From: an uncultured Chthonomonas sp.
GTDB lineage: Bacteria; Armatimonadota; Chthonomonadetes; Chthonomonadales; CAJBBX01
Assembly (NCBI GenBank): GCA_903951425.1
Contig: CAJBBX010000002.1
Location: 1-54,554 of the forward strand
Direction: 5' to 3'
DNA length: 54,554 nt
The translations under genes were made by a program, and so were the position numbers. Shown here piece by piece: positions 10,737 to 35,116 of this stretch; the first letter of the stretch is position 1; every line of letters begins with the position of its first letter. The notes under the pieces are model-generated. The model had not been told where the DNA came from, made no database searches, and saw nothing but the letters and a program-made list of their open reading frames with translations.

Positions 10737-10941
10737 GCACAGCTGCGGGAGGGGCGAAGGCGGGCGCATCAGGCGGCTGGCGGCCCAGGCTTCTATTTGG
10801 GCGGGTCCGTGACGGTCTGACGACATGGGCGGACTGACAGCCCTCACGATGGCCCCGCGGCCGGGGTGCCGGCGGGTCCGCCCTCGCCGCGCGGGGTATC
10901 GTGGATGGGGTGCGGCCCGCTCGGGCTGCGGGAGGTGGGGT

Positions 10942-12597
10942 ATGCGGTTCGGCGCGGCGTTGGCGGTCTTGGCGGTCTTGGCGGCGTTGGCGGCAGGGCC
11001 GGCCTGCTTGGCGGATCAGGGTCTCGGCAAGCCTGCCATGCAGCGGCGCTGGCTTTTTGTCTGGCGCGATATAAACGATCCGAAGGAGGTCGACCGCGTC
11101 ATCGCCCGCCTGCCCGCCGCCCATCGCGCGGGATACAACGGCGTGGCGCTCTCGGCCAACGTGGCTCCTGACCGCGCCGCGGCCCTGCGTCAGGCCGCCA
11201 AGCTGAACGGCATCGACCTCGTCGCCATCGTCATGGGCAACTCCCGCGACCGCAACAACATGGAGGGCGTGCCCGTGCGGGATGCGCTCTACCTGGTGAA
11301 GGAGGGCGTGGCCAGGCTGGAGCAGGACAACCCGACCCGCGTAGCCAACGGCGGATTCGAGGCCGAGGCCGGCGATCGTGCCGTGGGCTGGGGCTGGCAG
11401 GACGATGAGGGCGTCACCACCTTCATCGACCGGGAGGTCATGCGCTCGGGCCGCAGTTCGCTGCGCATGGAGGCCATCGGCAAGAACCAGTACCGCCACT
11501 GCCGCGTCAGCCAGCCCGTGAAGCTCCAGCCGCGCCGCCAGTACCACGTCTCCGTCTGGGTCAAGACCGAGGACCTCGCCCCGGCCGACCCGGAGATCAA
11601 GCTCCTCACCAGGGATGGGGCGTCGCTCAGCTTCCAGACCTTCCGCGTTGATCGGACCCAGGACTGGAAGTGCTACGACATCGTCTTCAACAGCTTCGAC
11701 GCGACGGAGGCCAACCTCTACCTGGGCAGTTGGGGCGGCAAAGAGGGCAAGCTCTGGTGGGATGACCTGGCCATCGAGGAGATCGGCCTGGTCAACGTGC
11801 TGCGGCGGCCGGGATGCCCCGTGGCCGTGCGCGGCGAGGGCGGCACGGCGTACGAGGAGGGGCGCGACTTCCAGCGCATCGTGGACCCCGTCCTGCACCC
11901 CTGGATCGCCTACCACGAGCAGCCGCCCATCCGACTGGCCGCGGGCACGCGCATCCGCGAGGGCGAGAGGCTCCGCGTGAGCTGGTACCACTCGATTGTC
12001 GTCTACGAGGACCGCCTGAACAGCTGCCTCAGCGAGCCGGCCATCTTCGAGGAGTGGCGCCGAGAGGTGAAGGCCGCCGACGCGCTGCTCCACCCGGCGG
12101 CGTTCCTCATGTCGCATGACGAGATCCGGGTCATCAACCAGTGCGCGCTCTGCCGGGGCCGTAACCTGACGCCGGGTCAGATACTGGCAGACAACGTGCG
12201 CAAGGCGGCGGCCATCATCCGACAGGCCCGGCCCGACGCCGGCATCTGGGTCTGGAACGACATGTTCGACCCCATGCACAACGCCGTGGAGAAGTTCTAC
12301 GCCGTGAACGGCACGCTGGCCGGAAGCTGGAAGGGGCTGGACAAGGACGTGGGCATCGTGAACTGGCATGGCGGGCTGGAGGGCAAGAACTGCCGCTTCT
12401 TCGCCGATCTGGGCCTGAAGCAGATCCTCTCGGGCTACTACGACGGCGACGACGACGGTGCGGCGATCACGCGGTGGAAGGCTGCCACGAGGGACATCCC
12501 CGGCATCGTCGGCGCCATGTACACCACCTGGGAGGACAAGTACGGCGCGATGGAGGCCTGGGCGAAGGCGGCCTGGGGAGGCGGCGGCGAACAGTGA
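10942..12597 (+). CDS. Secreted GH20-like TIM-barrel protein with inserted jelly-roll domain
   Basis: A 551-residue protein from ATG 10942, with GGGAGGTGG at 10930-10937. In-frame codons upstream (from 10825) lack a ribosome site. The signal peptide spans about residues 1-24. A barrel-like N-terminal part (WLFVWRDINDPKEVDRVIARLPAAHRAGYNGVAL) is followed by a carbohydrate-binding-like beta-sandwich (about 135-282, NGGFEAEAG...WWDDLAIEEI). A second barrel part contains LMSHDEIR (Asp393-Glu394), resembling the Asp-Glu pair of GH20 hexosaminidases. Substrate unknown. Its last residues AKAAWGGGGEQ are encoded by a 28-bp direct repeat found again at 13077-13104; the original end was probably AKAAWGGGG plus stop, before insertion of the DUF6508 segment. 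Confidence 0.85.
   Translation: MRFGAALAVLAVLAALAAGPACLADQGLGKPAMQRRWLFVWRDINDPKEVDRVIARLPAAHRAGYNGVALSANVAPDRAAALRQAAKLNGIDLVAIVMGNSRDRNNMEGVPVRDALYLVKEGVARLEQDNPTRVANGGFEAEAGDRAVGWGWQDDEGVTTFIDREVMRSGRSSLRMEAIGKNQYRHCRVSQPVKLQPRRQYHVSVWVKTEDLAPADPEIKLLTRDGASLSFQTFRVDRTQDWKCYDIVFNSFDATEANLYLGSWGGKEGKLWWDDLAIEEIGLVNVLRRPGCPVAVRGEGGTAYEEGRDFQRIVDPVLHPWIAYHEQPPIRLAAGTRIREGERLRVSWYHSIVVYEDRLNSCLSEPAIFEEWRREVKAADALLHPAAFLMSHDEIRVINQCALCRGRNLTPGQILADNVRKAAAIIRQARPDAGIWVWNDMFDPMHNAVEKFYAVNGTLAGSWKGLDKDVGIVNWHGGLEGKNCRFFADLGLKQILSGYYDGDDDGAAITRWKAATRDIPGIVGAMYTTWEDKYGAMEAWAKAAWGGGGEQ
12560..12587. repeat. 28-bp direct repeat, left copy
   Basis: It begins GGGCGAAGGCGG and ends GGGGAGGCGGCGG. It is identical over 28 bp to 13077-13104. 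Both copies are read in the same frame as AKAAWGGGG at the end of a coding region. Confidence 0.9.
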
Positions 12598-13104
12598 ACC
12601 ACAACAGGCCCTGTGCGGCAACGGTCCGGCGGGCATGAGCGGGCTGAATGAACGGAACTGCGCCGAGGTAATCTGCGCGGTCACACTGCAGGACTGGCAA
12701 CCGCTGTTCGCCCTGATCCCGGCGATTGAGGCTGCAGTGGTGTCTGGCGAACGGGATGGCGGCGGCTCGTCCCAAGATCACACGCCCGACCTCGCCATGG
12801 GTACCCAGGAGTCCCTGGTATCGCAGTTCATCACCATTGTATACGATATACCGATCATGATCGGGTTTGACTGGGCGCGATGGGACGCAGGGCGCGCCAT
12901 GGTGGCCGGCGGGTTGTTCGACTACGATAGCGTCGACTTGGTGACCAAGTGCAAGCTGATTAGCGCGATCGTAAGAAATGACCGGTTCTGCGATGGGGCT
13001 TTAGCCAGTTCGTTTGCATCTGGCATTATGTACAAGATAATCAGATCGATTGAGGACGAAGTGCGCGGTCGTGGCGGGGCGAAGGCGGCCTGGGGAGGCG
13101 GCGG
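12588..13104. mobile_element. Probable inserted segment carrying a DUF6508 gene
   Basis: The 489 bp between the two 28-bp repeats plus one repeat copy (517 bp in all) can be removed to restore the upstream gene ending AKAAWGGGG-stop, with its stop overlapping the convergent gene's stop. The segment uses ATA, TTA and AGA codons that are scarce around it and is visibly richer in A and T. No transposase or terminal inverted repeats are present. The insertion mechanism is unknown; a recombination or duplication event is the alternative. Confidence 0.45.
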
Positions 13105-13108
13105 TTAG
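12635..13108 (+). CDS. DUF6508-containing protein
   Basis: A 157-residue protein. The pattern WQPLFALIPAIEA, FDWARWDAG, DLVTKCKLISAIVRNDRFCDGAL and FASGIMYKIIRSIED matches the DUF6508 family, small bacterial proteins of unknown function often found in variable genome regions. ATG 12635 gives a normal N-terminus; no good Shine-Dalgarno is seen. Codon use (ATA, TTA, AGA) and base composition differ from all neighbours, which suggests recent transfer. The last residues GGAKAAWGGGG are not DUF6508-like. They are read from the 28-bp repeat shared with the upstream gene, so the native stop was lost and a short host-derived tail gained. The stop TAG overlaps the stop of the convergent gene at 13105. 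Confidence 0.85.
   Translation: MSGLNERNCAEVICAVTLQDWQPLFALIPAIEAAVVSGERDGGGSSQDHTPDLAMGTQESLVSQFITIVYDIPIMIGFDWARWDAGRAMVAGGLFDYDSVDLVTKCKLISAIVRNDRFCDGALASSFASGIMYKIIRSIEDEVRGRGGAKAAWGGGG
13077..13104. repeat. 28-bp direct repeat, right copy
   Basis: Identical to 12560-12587. It encodes the last nine residues (AKAAWGGGG) of the DUF6508 frame and is followed directly by TTAG, in which the stops of the two convergent genes overlap. Confidence 0.9.
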
Positions 13109-14496
13109 CGGGGCTCCGGCCTTCGGGCGGCGGTGCGCGCCATCTCGTCGCGCATCAGGACCAGCAGGGCGTCGACCAGCACGCGCTGCTCCTCGGTGGG
13201 TTTCCGCTCCGGCGGCGCGAGCCTGGGATTGCGCAGGGCGTCCAGCGCTTTCAGCGTCACCACGCGCCCGCCGCGCGGGTAGGTCGCGACGCGGTTGCCG
13301 CTCTCGTCGCTGACCCTCGGCTCTCCCAGCCGGGCAGCCAGCGTGCGTGCAAGGCTTCCCGGCGCCTTAGCGCGCCCTAGGATAACCAGGGGCCTGCCGC
13401 GTCGCAGGTGATTTACCACCGCGTCCGCCGCCGCCTCGGGCAGTATGTAGCCGTCATGCGCGAAGAGGATCAGGTCCGGCGCCTCGGGCAGGTCGGCGGC
13501 GGCGAAGAGTGGCACGTGGCGGCCCAGAGCGGCGAAGAGGTTGAAGAGGCCCGTCCGCCCGCTGTTGCCCCAGAGCGAGGCCCGGTACTCCTCGTACGCC
13601 GCCACTCGCGGGCCGATCGCCCGGGTGAAGGCTACCGGGGCGGCATACCGCGGCTCCCTGCATAGCCAGGCCATGGCGTTCAGCCAGAGGCGGCCGTTGT
13701 CGGCGTAGCGGAAGTAGGGGTCGCCGAGCATGTTCTGGTCGGCCGCCACCACGATTCGGCCCTTCCCCAGCGTCCTCGCTGCCACCACGCCCAGGGGGCC
13801 GTTGCGCTCGCCGGGGTCCTGCTTCCAGTTACCGTAGTGGCCAGGGGTGTCGCCCTCGCCGAACGGGTGCGAGGTCCACTGGTCGCCCCATGCCCGCGCT
13901 GTTGTGCGGGCGACGGCCCAGCGGTCGTCCACCGTGCCGCCTGTCTGCAGCGCGATGGCCCGAAGCCCCTCCGTGACCGGGTGCCTGGGGAAGTCCACCG
14001 CGACAAACCAGCCGTTACCCGCGCCCAGCGTCAGCGGGCCGCGCTCGGCGGCCGTCTCGGTGGTCACCCGTATGCCCAGCTCCTCCATCAGCGGCGCGAG
14101 CTTGTGGGCGTGGTAGTAGCAGTTGCTGTGGTCCGTGATGATGAACAGGCCGCCGCCTCGGAGTACGAAGCGCTTGATGGACGCGATCTCCGCGACGCCG
14201 AAGGCGGGCAGGTCCGCCGAGACGAGGTTGATGAACAGCGCCCGCACCCCCGCCAACCGCGCGTCGTCGATGTGGCCGGAGGTGGCCTCCTGCGCGCGGA
14301 TGCCCTGCGACTCCAACGCGCGGAAGGCACGGCGTAGCCCGTAGGCCGTGTGATAGGAGAAGGGGTCGTGGTCCGGGCCGAGCCGCAGGAAGTTGTGCGC
14401 GTGGATGCTGTCGACGAGGACCCGCACAGGCGCCGACGGCTTCGGGCGGCCTGCCGGCGCGAGCAGGAGGATGGCGGCAAGGGCGAATGAAACCAT
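13105..14496 (-). CDS. DUF4350-like / GATase-like fold protein, probably exported
   Basis: A 463-residue protein starting at ATG 14496 after GGGAG (14505-14509); the frame extends upstream to 14730, but that part overlaps the divergent ADH gene. A short hydrophobic N-terminus (SFALAAILLLAPAG) suggests export. The segment VRVLVDSIHAHNF, DDARLAGVRALFINLVSADLPAF, IKRFVLRGGGLFIITDHSN and later KGRIVVAADQNML fits the class I glutamine amidotransferase-like fold seen in DUF4350 and ThuA-like proteins. A catalytic Cys nucleophile is not evident, which is common in such secreted homologues. A second Rossmann-like part follows (about residue 290 on). Role unknown; the setting suggests carbohydrate work. 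Confidence 0.8.
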   Translation of the reverse strand: MVSFALAAILLLAPAGRPKPSAPVRVLVDSIHAHNFLRLGPDHDPFSYHTAYGLRRAFRALESQGIRAQEATSGHIDDARLAGVRALFINLVSADLPAFGVAEIASIKRFVLRGGGLFIITDHSNCYYHAHKLAPLMEELGIRVTTETAAERGPLTLGAGNGWFVAVDFPRHPVTEGLRAIALQTGGTVDDRWAVARTTARAWGDQWTSHPFGEGDTPGHYGNWKQDPGERNGPLGVVAARTLGKGRIVVAADQNMLGDPYFRYADNGRLWLNAMAWLCREPRYAAPVAFTRAIGPRVAAYEEYRASLWGNSGRTGLFNLFAALGRHVPLFAAADLPEAPDLILFAHDGYILPEAAADAVVNHLRRGRPLVILGRAKAPGSLARTLAARLGEPRVSDESGNRVATYPRGGRVVTLKALDALRNPRLAPPERKPTEEQRVLVDALLVLMRDEMARTAARRPEPR

Positions 14497-14541
14497 GCGA
14501 TCCGCTCCCGGTGCGGCGCATCTGCCGGGCCGCACGGTGCT

Positions 14542-15544: not shown

Positions 15545-17574
15545 TCGGCGCCGCGGCCATGCAGGGGTTTGCCGCGCTACTTGCCTGCCTCTGCGCATCG
15601 GCCGCGCCGGCCGCCGTCGATGCTCCCGTATGGCCCGGCAAGGGCTGGTCATGGAGAAGCCCCGAGGAGCTGGGCCTGAGCCGCGCCAAGCTCGACACCC
15701 TGCGCGATCTGGTCGGAGGGCGGGGATGCGTGGTGCGCGGCGGCTGCATGGCCTACTCCTGGGGCGACCAGTCGCAGAGCGCCGACGTGGCCTCAGCCGT
15801 GAAGCCCGTCATCAGCACGCTGCTGCTCATGGCCGTTCAGGAGGGCAAGCTCCGCGGCGCCGATGCGCCCGTGGCCGACTTCGAGCCCGGCCTGCGCTCG
15901 CTCAACGCCGGCAAGGACGCCCGCATCACCTGGCGCCACCTGGCCTCGCAGACCTCGGGCTACGGGCTCGCCGAGGCGCCCGGCGCCGCATGGGCCTACA
16001 ACGACAGCGCGCTGGCCCTCTACTTCGACACGCTCATGCGGAAGGTGTTCGCCGTGCCCGCCGACGAGGTCCTCCGGCCTCGGCTCGCGGAGCCGCTGGG
16101 CTTCGAGGACCGCTGCACCTTCTCGGCCTTCGGCCGGGAGGACCGCCTCGGACGGCTGGCGATCTCGGTGCGCGACTTCGCCCGCTTCGGCCTCTTCATC
16201 CTGCGCGGCGGCAAGTGGCAGGGCAGGCAGCTGCTGCGCCCGTCTCTGCTTCGAATGTCGCTGGAGAGCCCCGTCCCCGCCGCGCTTCCGCGGTCGGCCG
16301 GCATCGAGGCGCCCATGCTGCCCGGCCAACGCTCCCTGGGCGGCGGCAAGAACCAGACCCCCACGGGGCCGGGCTGTTACAGCTTCAACTGGTGGATCAA
16401 CCGCACGGACGCCGCGGGTCACCGCCTCTACCGCGACCTTCCGCCCGACCTGGTCCTGGCATCCGGCCATGGCGGTGTGCGGAACCTTTGGATCGTCCCG
16501 AGCCTCGACCTCATCGTCAGTTGGAACGACGCCGACGTGCGCGACCACGACGACTCGCCGTCTAACCCCAACACACGGGCCAACCAGGCCGCCCGGCTCA
16601 TCGCACAGTCCGTGGTGGGTCCTGTCGCCACGCCCGCCGCACCGCAGCGCACGCGCGTCTCCATTCAGGGCGGCCAGTGGCGGATCAACGGCGCGACGAC
16701 CTACCTCAGCGCCCCGGCCCAGGGGCTTCTGCTCAATGTCCGCATGGTGAACGCCACCTACGAGGACCGAAACAGGCCCGGATGGGAGCGAGAGGCCGAG
16801 GCCAACACCGACGCCTTCATCGCGAAGGTCCCTGAATACGTGGCTACCGGCGTGCGCGCCATCACCCTCAACCTGCAGGGCGGTGCGCCGGGCTATGAGG
16901 GCGCCCACAACTCCGCCTACGAGCCCGACGGCACGCTGCGTCGGGAGTACCTGGGCCGCGTGGAGCGCGTGATCGAGGCCTGCGACCGGGCCGGAGCCGC
17001 GGTCATCCTCGGCTGCTTCTACCAGCGGCAGGATCAGCGCCTCCGTGACGAAGCAGCTGTGCGCCGCGCCGTCGTCGAGGTCGCCCGCCGGCTCAAGCGC
17101 CTCGGGCGCGGCAACGTGCTGCTGGAGATCGCCAACGAGTACGGCCACAGCGGCTTCGACCACCCGATCCTCCGCTCGGCAGATGGGCAGGTCGAGCTGA
17201 TGCAGGCCGCACGGGCCGCCTGTCCCGGCCTACTCGTCTCCACCAGCGGGCAGGGCGACGGCGCTCTGGGCGAGCGGGTGGCGCGTGCGTCGGACTTCAT
17301 CCTCATCCATCTGAACGGCACGCCCGCATCGGCCATCCCGTCGAAGGTGCGGCCGCTGCTTCGCTTCGGCAAGCCGGTGGTCTGCAACGAGGACCAGAAA
17401 GTGGGCGCCGCCGGCGCCGAGGCCCTCTCCGCCTGCGTGGCGGCGGGCGCCTCCTGGGGCCTGATGGCCGAGGCAGTCAACCAGCGCCACCCCTTCCGCT
17501 TCACCGGCGCCGCCGACGACCCGGCAGTATACGCCCGCATGCGTGCGCTGACGACGCCGGGCGAAGGGAGATGA
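15535..17574 (+). CDS. Secreted serine beta-lactamase-fold / GH-A glycosidase-like fusion protein
   Basis: A 679-residue protein with two enzyme domains. The signal peptide spans about residues 1-27. Residues 35-360 form a class C beta-lactamase/esterase-type domain: SAVK (Ser87 to Lys90, SxxK), AYND (Tyr155, in the place of YxN) and HGG (312-314, in the place of KTG). Residues 380-675 look like a clan GH-A TIM barrel: IANEYGH with Asn534-Glu535 as likely acid/base and VVCNED with Glu619 as likely nucleophile. An esterase joined to a glycosidase would suit acylated glycans; this is inference. ATG 15535 overlaps the ADH stop; ATG 15559 is an alternative. No stop or frame change separates the domains. 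The next gene starts at its stop. Confidence 0.88.
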   Translation: MLVIGAAAMQGFAALLACLCASAAPAAVDAPVWPGKGWSWRSPEELGLSRAKLDTLRDLVGGRGCVVRGGCMAYSWGDQSQSADVASAVKPVISTLLLMAVQEGKLRGADAPVADFEPGLRSLNAGKDARITWRHLASQTSGYGLAEAPGAAWAYNDSALALYFDTLMRKVFAVPADEVLRPRLAEPLGFEDRCTFSAFGREDRLGRLAISVRDFARFGLFILRGGKWQGRQLLRPSLLRMSLESPVPAALPRSAGIEAPMLPGQRSLGGGKNQTPTGPGCYSFNWWINRTDAAGHRLYRDLPPDLVLASGHGGVRNLWIVPSLDLIVSWNDADVRDHDDSPSNPNTRANQAARLIAQSVVGPVATPAAPQRTRVSIQGGQWRINGATTYLSAPAQGLLLNVRMVNATYEDRNRPGWEREAEANTDAFIAKVPEYVATGVRAITLNLQGGAPGYEGAHNSAYEPDGTLRREYLGRVERVIEACDRAGAAVILGCFYQRQDQRLRDEAAVRRAVVEVARRLKRLGRGNVLLEIANEYGHSGFDHPILRSADGQVELMQAARAACPGLLVSTSGQGDGALGERVARASDFILIHLNGTPASAIPSKVRPLLRFGKPVVCNEDQKVGAAGAEALSACVAAGASWGLMAEAVNQRHPFRFTGAADDPAVYARMRALTTPGEGR

Positions 17575-33058: not shown

Positions 33059-33901
33059 CTACCAGAGGCGCAGGCCCGCCCGCAGGGCCATGCGCCCCGC
33101 CGTGTAGAGCAGCACCAGCCCGAAGAGCCACCGGAGCCGCTTGGCGTCGATCTTCCCCGCTGCCAGCGAGCCCAGGCGTGCGCCGGCCATGACACCCAGC
33201 GTGCAGATCGCCGCGATGCGCGGGTTCACCTCCCCGTGGGCCAGGTAAGGCACCGCCGTAGCGGCCGCCGTGATGCCGATCATGAACGTGCTGGTGGCCG
33301 TTGCCACTCGGATGGGTAGCTCCATGCGCCCGGCCATGGCCGGCACCATGACGATGCCTCCGCCCACACCCAGCAGCGCCGAGATCACGCCCGCCGCCAA
33401 CCCCGCCACCCGCCCCAGGTTCAGGTTGCGGACGCGGTAGAACACCTCGTCGCCCGTGGCCGGATCGATGTAGGACCTGGGAGCGTCGCTGGTGGCTCGG
33501 GCCTCCGTGCCCGAGTCCGCAGGTGCCCGCTCATGCCGCCCGCCCAGCGCCACACTGAAGGCCGCATAGAGCAGGAAGAGCGCAAAGAGTCCCGCCACCG
33601 CCTCGCCGGAGACGCGATAGGCCACATAAGCCCCCACGATGGAGCCAAACACCGTGGAGCCCTCAAGCTGCAGGGCCAGGGGCACGTCCACCAGCCGTTG
33701 GCGCAGGAAGCGGATCGCGCCGGACGACGACGTGGCCACCACGCTGATGACGCTGCACGCCACCGCTTGCCTCGGCTCCAGCCCCAGTAGCGCGATGAGG
33801 CCAGGCACAAGGATGACGCCGCCGCCCACGCCCATCATCGCCCCGAATGCGCCGGCGAAGAGCGCCACGGCTGCCACCTGCGCGGCATGCGTCCAATCCA
33901 T
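33059..33901 (-). CDS. TauE/SafE (DUF81) family membrane exporter
   Basis: A 280-residue membrane protein with about eight hydrophobic segments in two halves. Each half has the family glycine motif: FGAMMGVGGGVILVPGL in the first and ISALLGVGGGIVMVPAM in the second. Members move sulfite, sulfoacetate or other organic anions. The loop between halves is long and polar (GGRHERAPADSGTEARATSD...), and its SGTEARAT residues are encoded by a REP-like hairpin repeat also found in the intergenic region at 34860 and 35075. ATG 33901 follows GGGAGG. It is divergent from the creatininase gene. Substrate unknown. Confidence 0.92.
   Translation of the reverse strand: MDWTHAAQVAAVALFAGAFGAMMGVGGGVILVPGLIALLGLEPRQAVACSVISVVATSSSGAIRFLRQRLVDVPLALQLEGSTVFGSIVGAYVAYRVSGEAVAGLFALFLLYAAFSVALGGRHERAPADSGTEARATSDAPRSYIDPATGDEVFYRVRNLNLGRVAGLAAGVISALLGVGGGIVMVPAMAGRMELPIRVATATSTFMIGITAAATAVPYLAHGEVNPRIAAICTLGVMAGARLGSLAAGKIDAKRLRWLFGLVLLYTAGRMALRAGLRLW
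33491..33515. repeat. REP-like hairpin repeat, copy 1 (inside TauE/SafE gene)
   Basis: A 25-bp unit with arms CTCGGGC (33496-33502) and GCCCGAG (33509-33515) around loop CTCCGT. Identity with copy 3 (35075) extends to 27 bp. It lies in-frame in the inter-domain loop of the transporter. Confidence 0.75.
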
Positions 33902-34859: not shown

Positions 34860-34884
34860 GGTGGCTCGGACCTCCGTGCCCGAG
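34860..34884. repeat. REP-like hairpin repeat, copy 2
   Basis: It matches copies at 33491 and 35075 except for one base in the left arm (CTCGGAC instead of CTCGGGC), which breaks one pair of the stem. Confidence 0.75.
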
Positions 34885-35074: not shown

Positions 35075-35099
35075 GGTGGCTCGGGCCTCCGTGCCCGAG
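35075..35099. repeat. REP-like hairpin repeat, copy 3
   Basis: Identical over 25 bp to copy 1 and just downstream of the leftward HEAT gene's 3' end. Its arms CTCGGGC and GCCCGAG could form a hairpin in that transcript's tail. Confidence 0.75.
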
Positions 35100-35116
35100 T
35101 CTTCTCACCCTCATCC

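Follow-up and report, generated by a model that had tools for sequence, protein, structure and literature searches.

The locus analysed here raises the question of how a single gene of foreign composition came to lie between two copies of the 3' end of its upstream neighbour. The DNA examined, referred to as the window (54,554 nucleotides), is contig C2 of the 6.1-Mb genome G000, an Armatimonadota MAG, and it was compared with two congeneric genomes, G001 and G002.

Direct repeat at the junction of two convergent genes

An exact direct repeat of 28 bp (GGGCGAAGGCGGCCTGGGGAGGCGGCGG) was found at positions 12560-12587 and 13077-13104 of the window, with a spacing of 517. Each copy lies within its own open reading frame and is read there as AKAAWGGGG, which agrees with the original prediction in both sequence and frame. 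The longest exact repeat with a spacing of 200-2000 bp in Markov-1 simulated windows (n=30) was 13-18 bp, and since the observed repeat is well above the simulated maximum of 18 bp, it is not a product of chance. When 1.17 Mb of the genus was scanned, this pair was the sole repeat longer than 20 bp, 300-1000 bp apart, that lay outside duplicated domains.

The other repeats of at least 20 bp in the scan were set aside as duplicated domains or paralogues, a tandem array, and a dispersed hairpin-forming repeat of 27 bp. The last of these (GGTGGCTCGGGCCTCCGTGCCCGAGTC) was located in the window at 33491-33517, 35075-35101 and 34860-34884, and full or near copies were also present elsewhere in G000 and G001, on several further contigs. 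Two further pairs were recorded, one of 20 bp and one of 33 bp in G002, which no relative resolves. The 33-bp pair (contig C49 of G002; L075, 675-707 and 2176-2208) is an exact direct repeat with a spacing of 1501 bp; the stretch it encloses contains an amidase-like frame and has no counterpart in G000 or G001. The short contigs C3 and C6 of G000 (L086 and L089) were mostly or wholly N as read here.

The left copy (12560-12587, + strand) forms the 3' end of the upstream gene (10825-12597, + strand), for which matches were found in 67 of 101 relatives. This gene had been described as GH20-like, a label that is weakly supported: the match to the GH20 catalytic domain had an E value of 0.059, and Pfam showed CBM_4_9 only. 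The left copy is followed at 12588-12594 (+ strand) by a remnant of the old stop, which in the alignment reads CGAACAG in the window and CTAG in G001. Because of this change, the upstream gene is now two residues longer and ends as AKAAWGGGG-EQ at the TGA that opens the insert. The inserted segment proper (12595-13076, + strand) measures 482 bp in the window as in G001 and is missing from G002 and the other family members examined. The right copy of the target unit (13077-13108, + strand) consists of 28 bp identical to the left copy followed by TTAG, and it encodes a second AKAAWGGGG together with a stop. The convergent gene (13105-14499, - strand) encodes a DUF4350 protein, and its stop overlaps that of the inserted gene here and that of the upstream gene in G002.

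Composition and product of the inserted gene

The inserted gene (12635-13108, + strand) encodes a protein of 157 amino acids, whose core domain (12683-13057) matched Pfam PF20118, DUF6508, with an E value of about 6e-29 (99.6-100.9 bits against a cut-off of 23.6). The GC content of the insert was 58% against about 70% in its surroundings; its coding part had a GC of 0.58 and a GC3 of 0.72, compared with a GC3 of 0.92 for the upstream gene. The codons ATA, TTA and AGA occurred 2, 1 and 2 times in 147 codons of the DUF6508 gene versus 2, 0 and 0 times in 541 codons of the upstream gene. The identity of the gene and its atypical use of these codons, both noted from the sequence beforehand, were therefore borne out, and the comparison of GC and codon usage that had been proposed placed the insert below its surroundings in GC and below the upstream gene in GC3.

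Other DUF6508 proteins end at most a few residues past the domain. Beyond it, the window protein runs on as GRGGAKAAWGGGG and the G001 protein as GRGGAQPTRGGGG, and the final nine residues of the former are encoded by the duplicated host sequence. A shallow AlphaFold model built from two sequences was all-helical with a low mean pLDDT of 63, and residues 147-157 scored below 50. Together with the ends of the other proteins, this low-confidence model supports the proposal that the C-terminal tail is a host-derived addition, predicted to be unstructured. Searches for a relative of the protein in the PDB, for a PADLOC defence-system match and for a mention of DUF6508 in the papers searched returned none.

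Empty and occupied sites in congeners

The corresponding site of G002 (CAISJD010000049.1) is empty, as it contains GGGCGAAGGCGGCCTGGGGCGTCGGCGGCTAG once and no DUF6508 gene. This copy matches the left copy of the window at 26 of 28 positions, and in a BLAST comparison both ends of the window insert fell on the same 29 bp of G002. The upstream and convergent genes of G002 stand tail to tail with both stops inside the palindrome CTAG, an arrangement confined to this genus among the loci tested. Removal of the insert from the window was expected to recreate such a pair with overlapping stops, and it does so.

In G001 (JAPLCQ010000054.1), the same site is occupied by a left copy (GGGCGAAGGCGGCCTGGGGAGGCGGCGGCTAG), 482 bp, and a right copy (GGGCCCAGCCGACACGGGGAGGCGGCGGCTAG). 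The left copy is identical to that of the window over the 28 bp and still ends in the old stop CTAG, and the right copy agrees with it exactly over 17 bp and at 26 of 32 bp overall. The two alleles together uphold the reading of the locus as an insertion: the congener that has the gene also has the repeats, and the congener that lacks the gene has one copy and not two. An assembly artefact is unlikely, since the insertion with its diverged copies is common to two separate assemblies.

Identity between the window and G001 was 91% for the insert and 91-93% for the flanks, and the dS values were 0.22 for the DUF6508 gene, 0.22 for the upstream gene and 0.26 for the convergent gene. The equal dS of insert and flanks indicates that the insertion is older than the split between the window and G001, which by divergence are nearer each other than either is to G002. 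The dN/dS of the DUF6508 gene between the two was 0.29, a value indicating that the gene has been kept under purifying selection since the split.

Two other differences were seen among the three congeners. About 570 bp of G001 (contig C30; L083, 17694-18268) are unique to that genome and encode a small c-type cytochrome (CDYCH, CAMCH), and no long flanking repeats were seen around this segment. A region of about 1.7 kb with a beta-lactamase-like gene (window 15822-17507) is present in the window and G002 and missing from G001, where the comparison with L083 at about 16603-16646 gives the appearance of an in-place deletion.

Length of the original duplication

The duplicated unit had been proposed to be 28 bp. 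The identity over 28 bp in the window stands; the length of the unit is revised by the comparison with G001, probably up to 32 bp including the stop codon. As judged from the two occupied alleles, the original target duplication would have been 17 to 32 bp. The shorter limit corresponds to a duplication or homology of just 17 bp (GGGGAGGCGGCGGCTAG), with the 28 bp of the window arising from later left-to-right gene conversion. This length variant, which is compatible with the insertion favoured below, is a lesser possibility that deserves some weight, because the right copy of G001 is identical over 17 bp only and its six differences are crowded into 12 bp. However, of the other 15 bp, which lie outside the 17-bp core, 9 still agree (p about 0.012 if the sequences were unrelated and of such composition). 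The excess of matches beyond the core favours, though not strongly, an original copy of 28-32 bp that later diverged in G001.

Mechanism of insertion

Given a gene of foreign origin, an empty site, a direct duplication, an age before the split and purifying selection afterwards, all of which we consider established, the locus is probably explained by insertion of a foreign gene with target duplication before the window's species and G001 diverged. In their common ancestor, a foreign stretch of about 480 bp with the DUF6508 gene on it would have entered at the seam of two convergent genes whose stops overlapped in CTAG. A target sequence of 17 to 32 bp, made up of the upstream gene's 3' end and its stop, would have been duplicated in the process, and because the stop was included, both neighbours would have kept their ends. 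The DUF6508 frame would then have run into the second copy, gaining a host tail and a host stop. Since the neighbours overlapped in CTAG, one of them would have lost its stop to an insertion that duplicated nothing, whereas a duplicating event would be tolerated. We infer that the duplication was made at insertion by staggered-break illegitimate joining, in which the ends are filled in, or by template switching, without a transposase. As had been remarked for this segment, no transposase was found among the neighbours tested, nor was an integrase, and terminal inverted repeats were absent from the ends of the insert, which therefore has neither of the two marks of an insertion sequence or transposon.

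The main rival to target-duplicating insertion is a decayed integrative element, which would leave the same scar. A tyrosine recombinase would have integrated an element into the upstream gene's 3' end, the repeats would be attL and attR, and the integrase and other cargo would have been lost with DUF6508 left behind. Elements of this kind typically sit at a gene 3' end that is re-created at each flank, and 17-32 bp is a typical core length. The position at a gene 3' end and the re-created end fit, as does the occurrence of DUF6508 elsewhere on plasmids and, at one locus (L117), beside an integrase arm-domain fragment. We nevertheless regard this history as somewhat unlikely, for no integrase or integrase fragment was detected among the neighbours tested, the insert is 482 bp in both species so that decay must have been complete before their split, and the repeat was not found elsewhere as another attachment site. 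The window shares with integrative elements at the 3' ends of protein genes a direct repeat of the gene end including the stop, and differs from them in the missing integrase and in an insert of about 480 bp only.

The two remaining alternatives concern the timing and the route of entry. The empty site is represented by a single congener, and gain in the ancestor of the genus followed by exact loss in G002 also fits the alleles: direct repeats promote exact deletion, and the tail-to-tail pair was found in this genus alone among the loci tested. This sequence of events is unlikely, as it needs two events where one suffices and the window and G001 are nearer each other than either is to G002. 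Single-crossover integration of a circular DNA with a short match to the gene end, with the remainder later deleted, would likewise leave the matching stretch in an additional copy, and work in plants has proposed that genes can move by way of circles with flanking repeats (PMC2869330). It seems improbable here, because a match of 28 bp offers very little length for homologous recombination, the match in the donor would need to have arisen by chance, and no donor was found. Set against all these, target-duplicating insertion remains the reading we prefer, with the reservations that the 28 bp of the window may include later gene conversion, the copies of G001 being exact over 17 bp only, and that the congener MAG sequences may carry assembly errors.

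Comparison with known systems

The closest resemblance is to the 'insertion with long target duplication' of Helicobacter pylori, which is often associated with restriction-modification genes and has been suggested as a mechanism of gene mobility (PMC1643837); the stretches of target that it duplicates are of the order of 100 bp (PMC3874152, PMC4978471). The comparison draws on these three papers as they cite Nobusato et al. 2000. According to them, the Helicobacter insertions, like that in the window, are gene-sized and revealed by close relatives, with one copy in the empty allele and repeats when occupied, and these accounts name no transposase. The window has the one-copy empty allele (in G002) and repeats longer than those usual for insertion sequences. 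It differs in its cargo, a single DUF6508 gene in place of a restriction-modification gene set (the usual though not a strict association), in a duplication of 17-32 bp instead of the order of 100 bp, and in an inserted frame that ends inside the duplicated target.

In Arabidopsis, the direct repeats that flank transposed genes exceed 15-30 bp and consist of non-transposon host sequence, often with a single repeat copy at the orthologous target, as in the window; unlike the present case, the host is a eukaryote and the repeats often derive from the donor site (PMC2869330). The insert resembles an integron gene cassette in being one small gene of about 500 bp. Inspected by eye only, its ends displayed no attC-like structure, and GTTRRRY was not conserved in G001. 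Integron cassettes are not known to duplicate 17-32 bp of their target.

Distribution of DUF6508

DUF6508 of the window type was present in 2 of 291 genomes of the phylum, those of the window and G001, and absent from the other family members examined, G002 included. The other DUF6508 genes of the phylum, mostly in one further family (f14), belong to a distant subfamily with 18-21% identity where aligned. The domain also occurred in 9 of 294 sampled genomes of the phylum of G291, some of which outscore the window protein against Pfam, and in 7 of 388 sampled genomes of the phylum of G293. A search for phage, plasmid or virus sources of the window type yielded none, and no second copy of the insert was found elsewhere.

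Among 31 DUF6508 loci tested, host-derived flanking repeats were limited to the window and G001. This distribution, and the earlier description of insertion with long target duplication, speak against the suggestion of a novel mechanism specific to DUF6508. One apparent parallel, L117 of genome G491 with flanking repeats of about 57-59 bp, was dropped as the repeat recurs at least 10 times genome-wide. Some of its copies lie at contig ends and some form short inverted pairs, so that they look like IS-like repeat ends. At that locus (1254-1310 and 1808-1866), the 3' end of the DUF6508 gene is cut by the dispersed repeat, and the integrase arm-domain fragment adjoins.

Possible role and significance

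A Mesorhizobium plasmid encodes DUF6508 in fusion with a GIY-YIG nuclease domain (L190, 2185-3438), and at another locus its fusion partner is an ADP-ribosylglycohydrolase domain (L125, 6058-7527, - strand). On a Croceicoccus plasmid, DUF6508 adjoins a ParD/RelE pair and a gene annotated as HEPN, in which Pfam shows no domain; elsewhere it adjoins a Gp49/HTH pair (L132) and apparent type I restriction genes, as read by eye (L128). These fusions and neighbours suggest a putative role of DUF6508 in conflict or defence. Genome G864 carries two near-identical DUF6508 genes on different contigs (L132 and L136), each beside a 3-dehydroquinase-like gene, which it overlaps in L132.

A broader idea, that DUF6508 genes are small selfish or defence genes that move bare by target-duplicating insertion and prefer sites at which gene ends overlap and a duplicated stop leaves the neighbours unharmed, is highly improbable; we read the window as a one-off insertion of a foreign gene with a long target duplication. 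The entry of bare genes into bacterial chromosomes is poorly understood. The locus offers a clean single case of a foreign gene without a recognisable mobile element, whose stop codon and final residues were borrowed from the host; both an empty allele and its occupied sister are available, and the divergence is dated. A pattern familiar chiefly from the restriction-modification genes of Helicobacter is seen here, in one case, in another phylum and with another type of gene.
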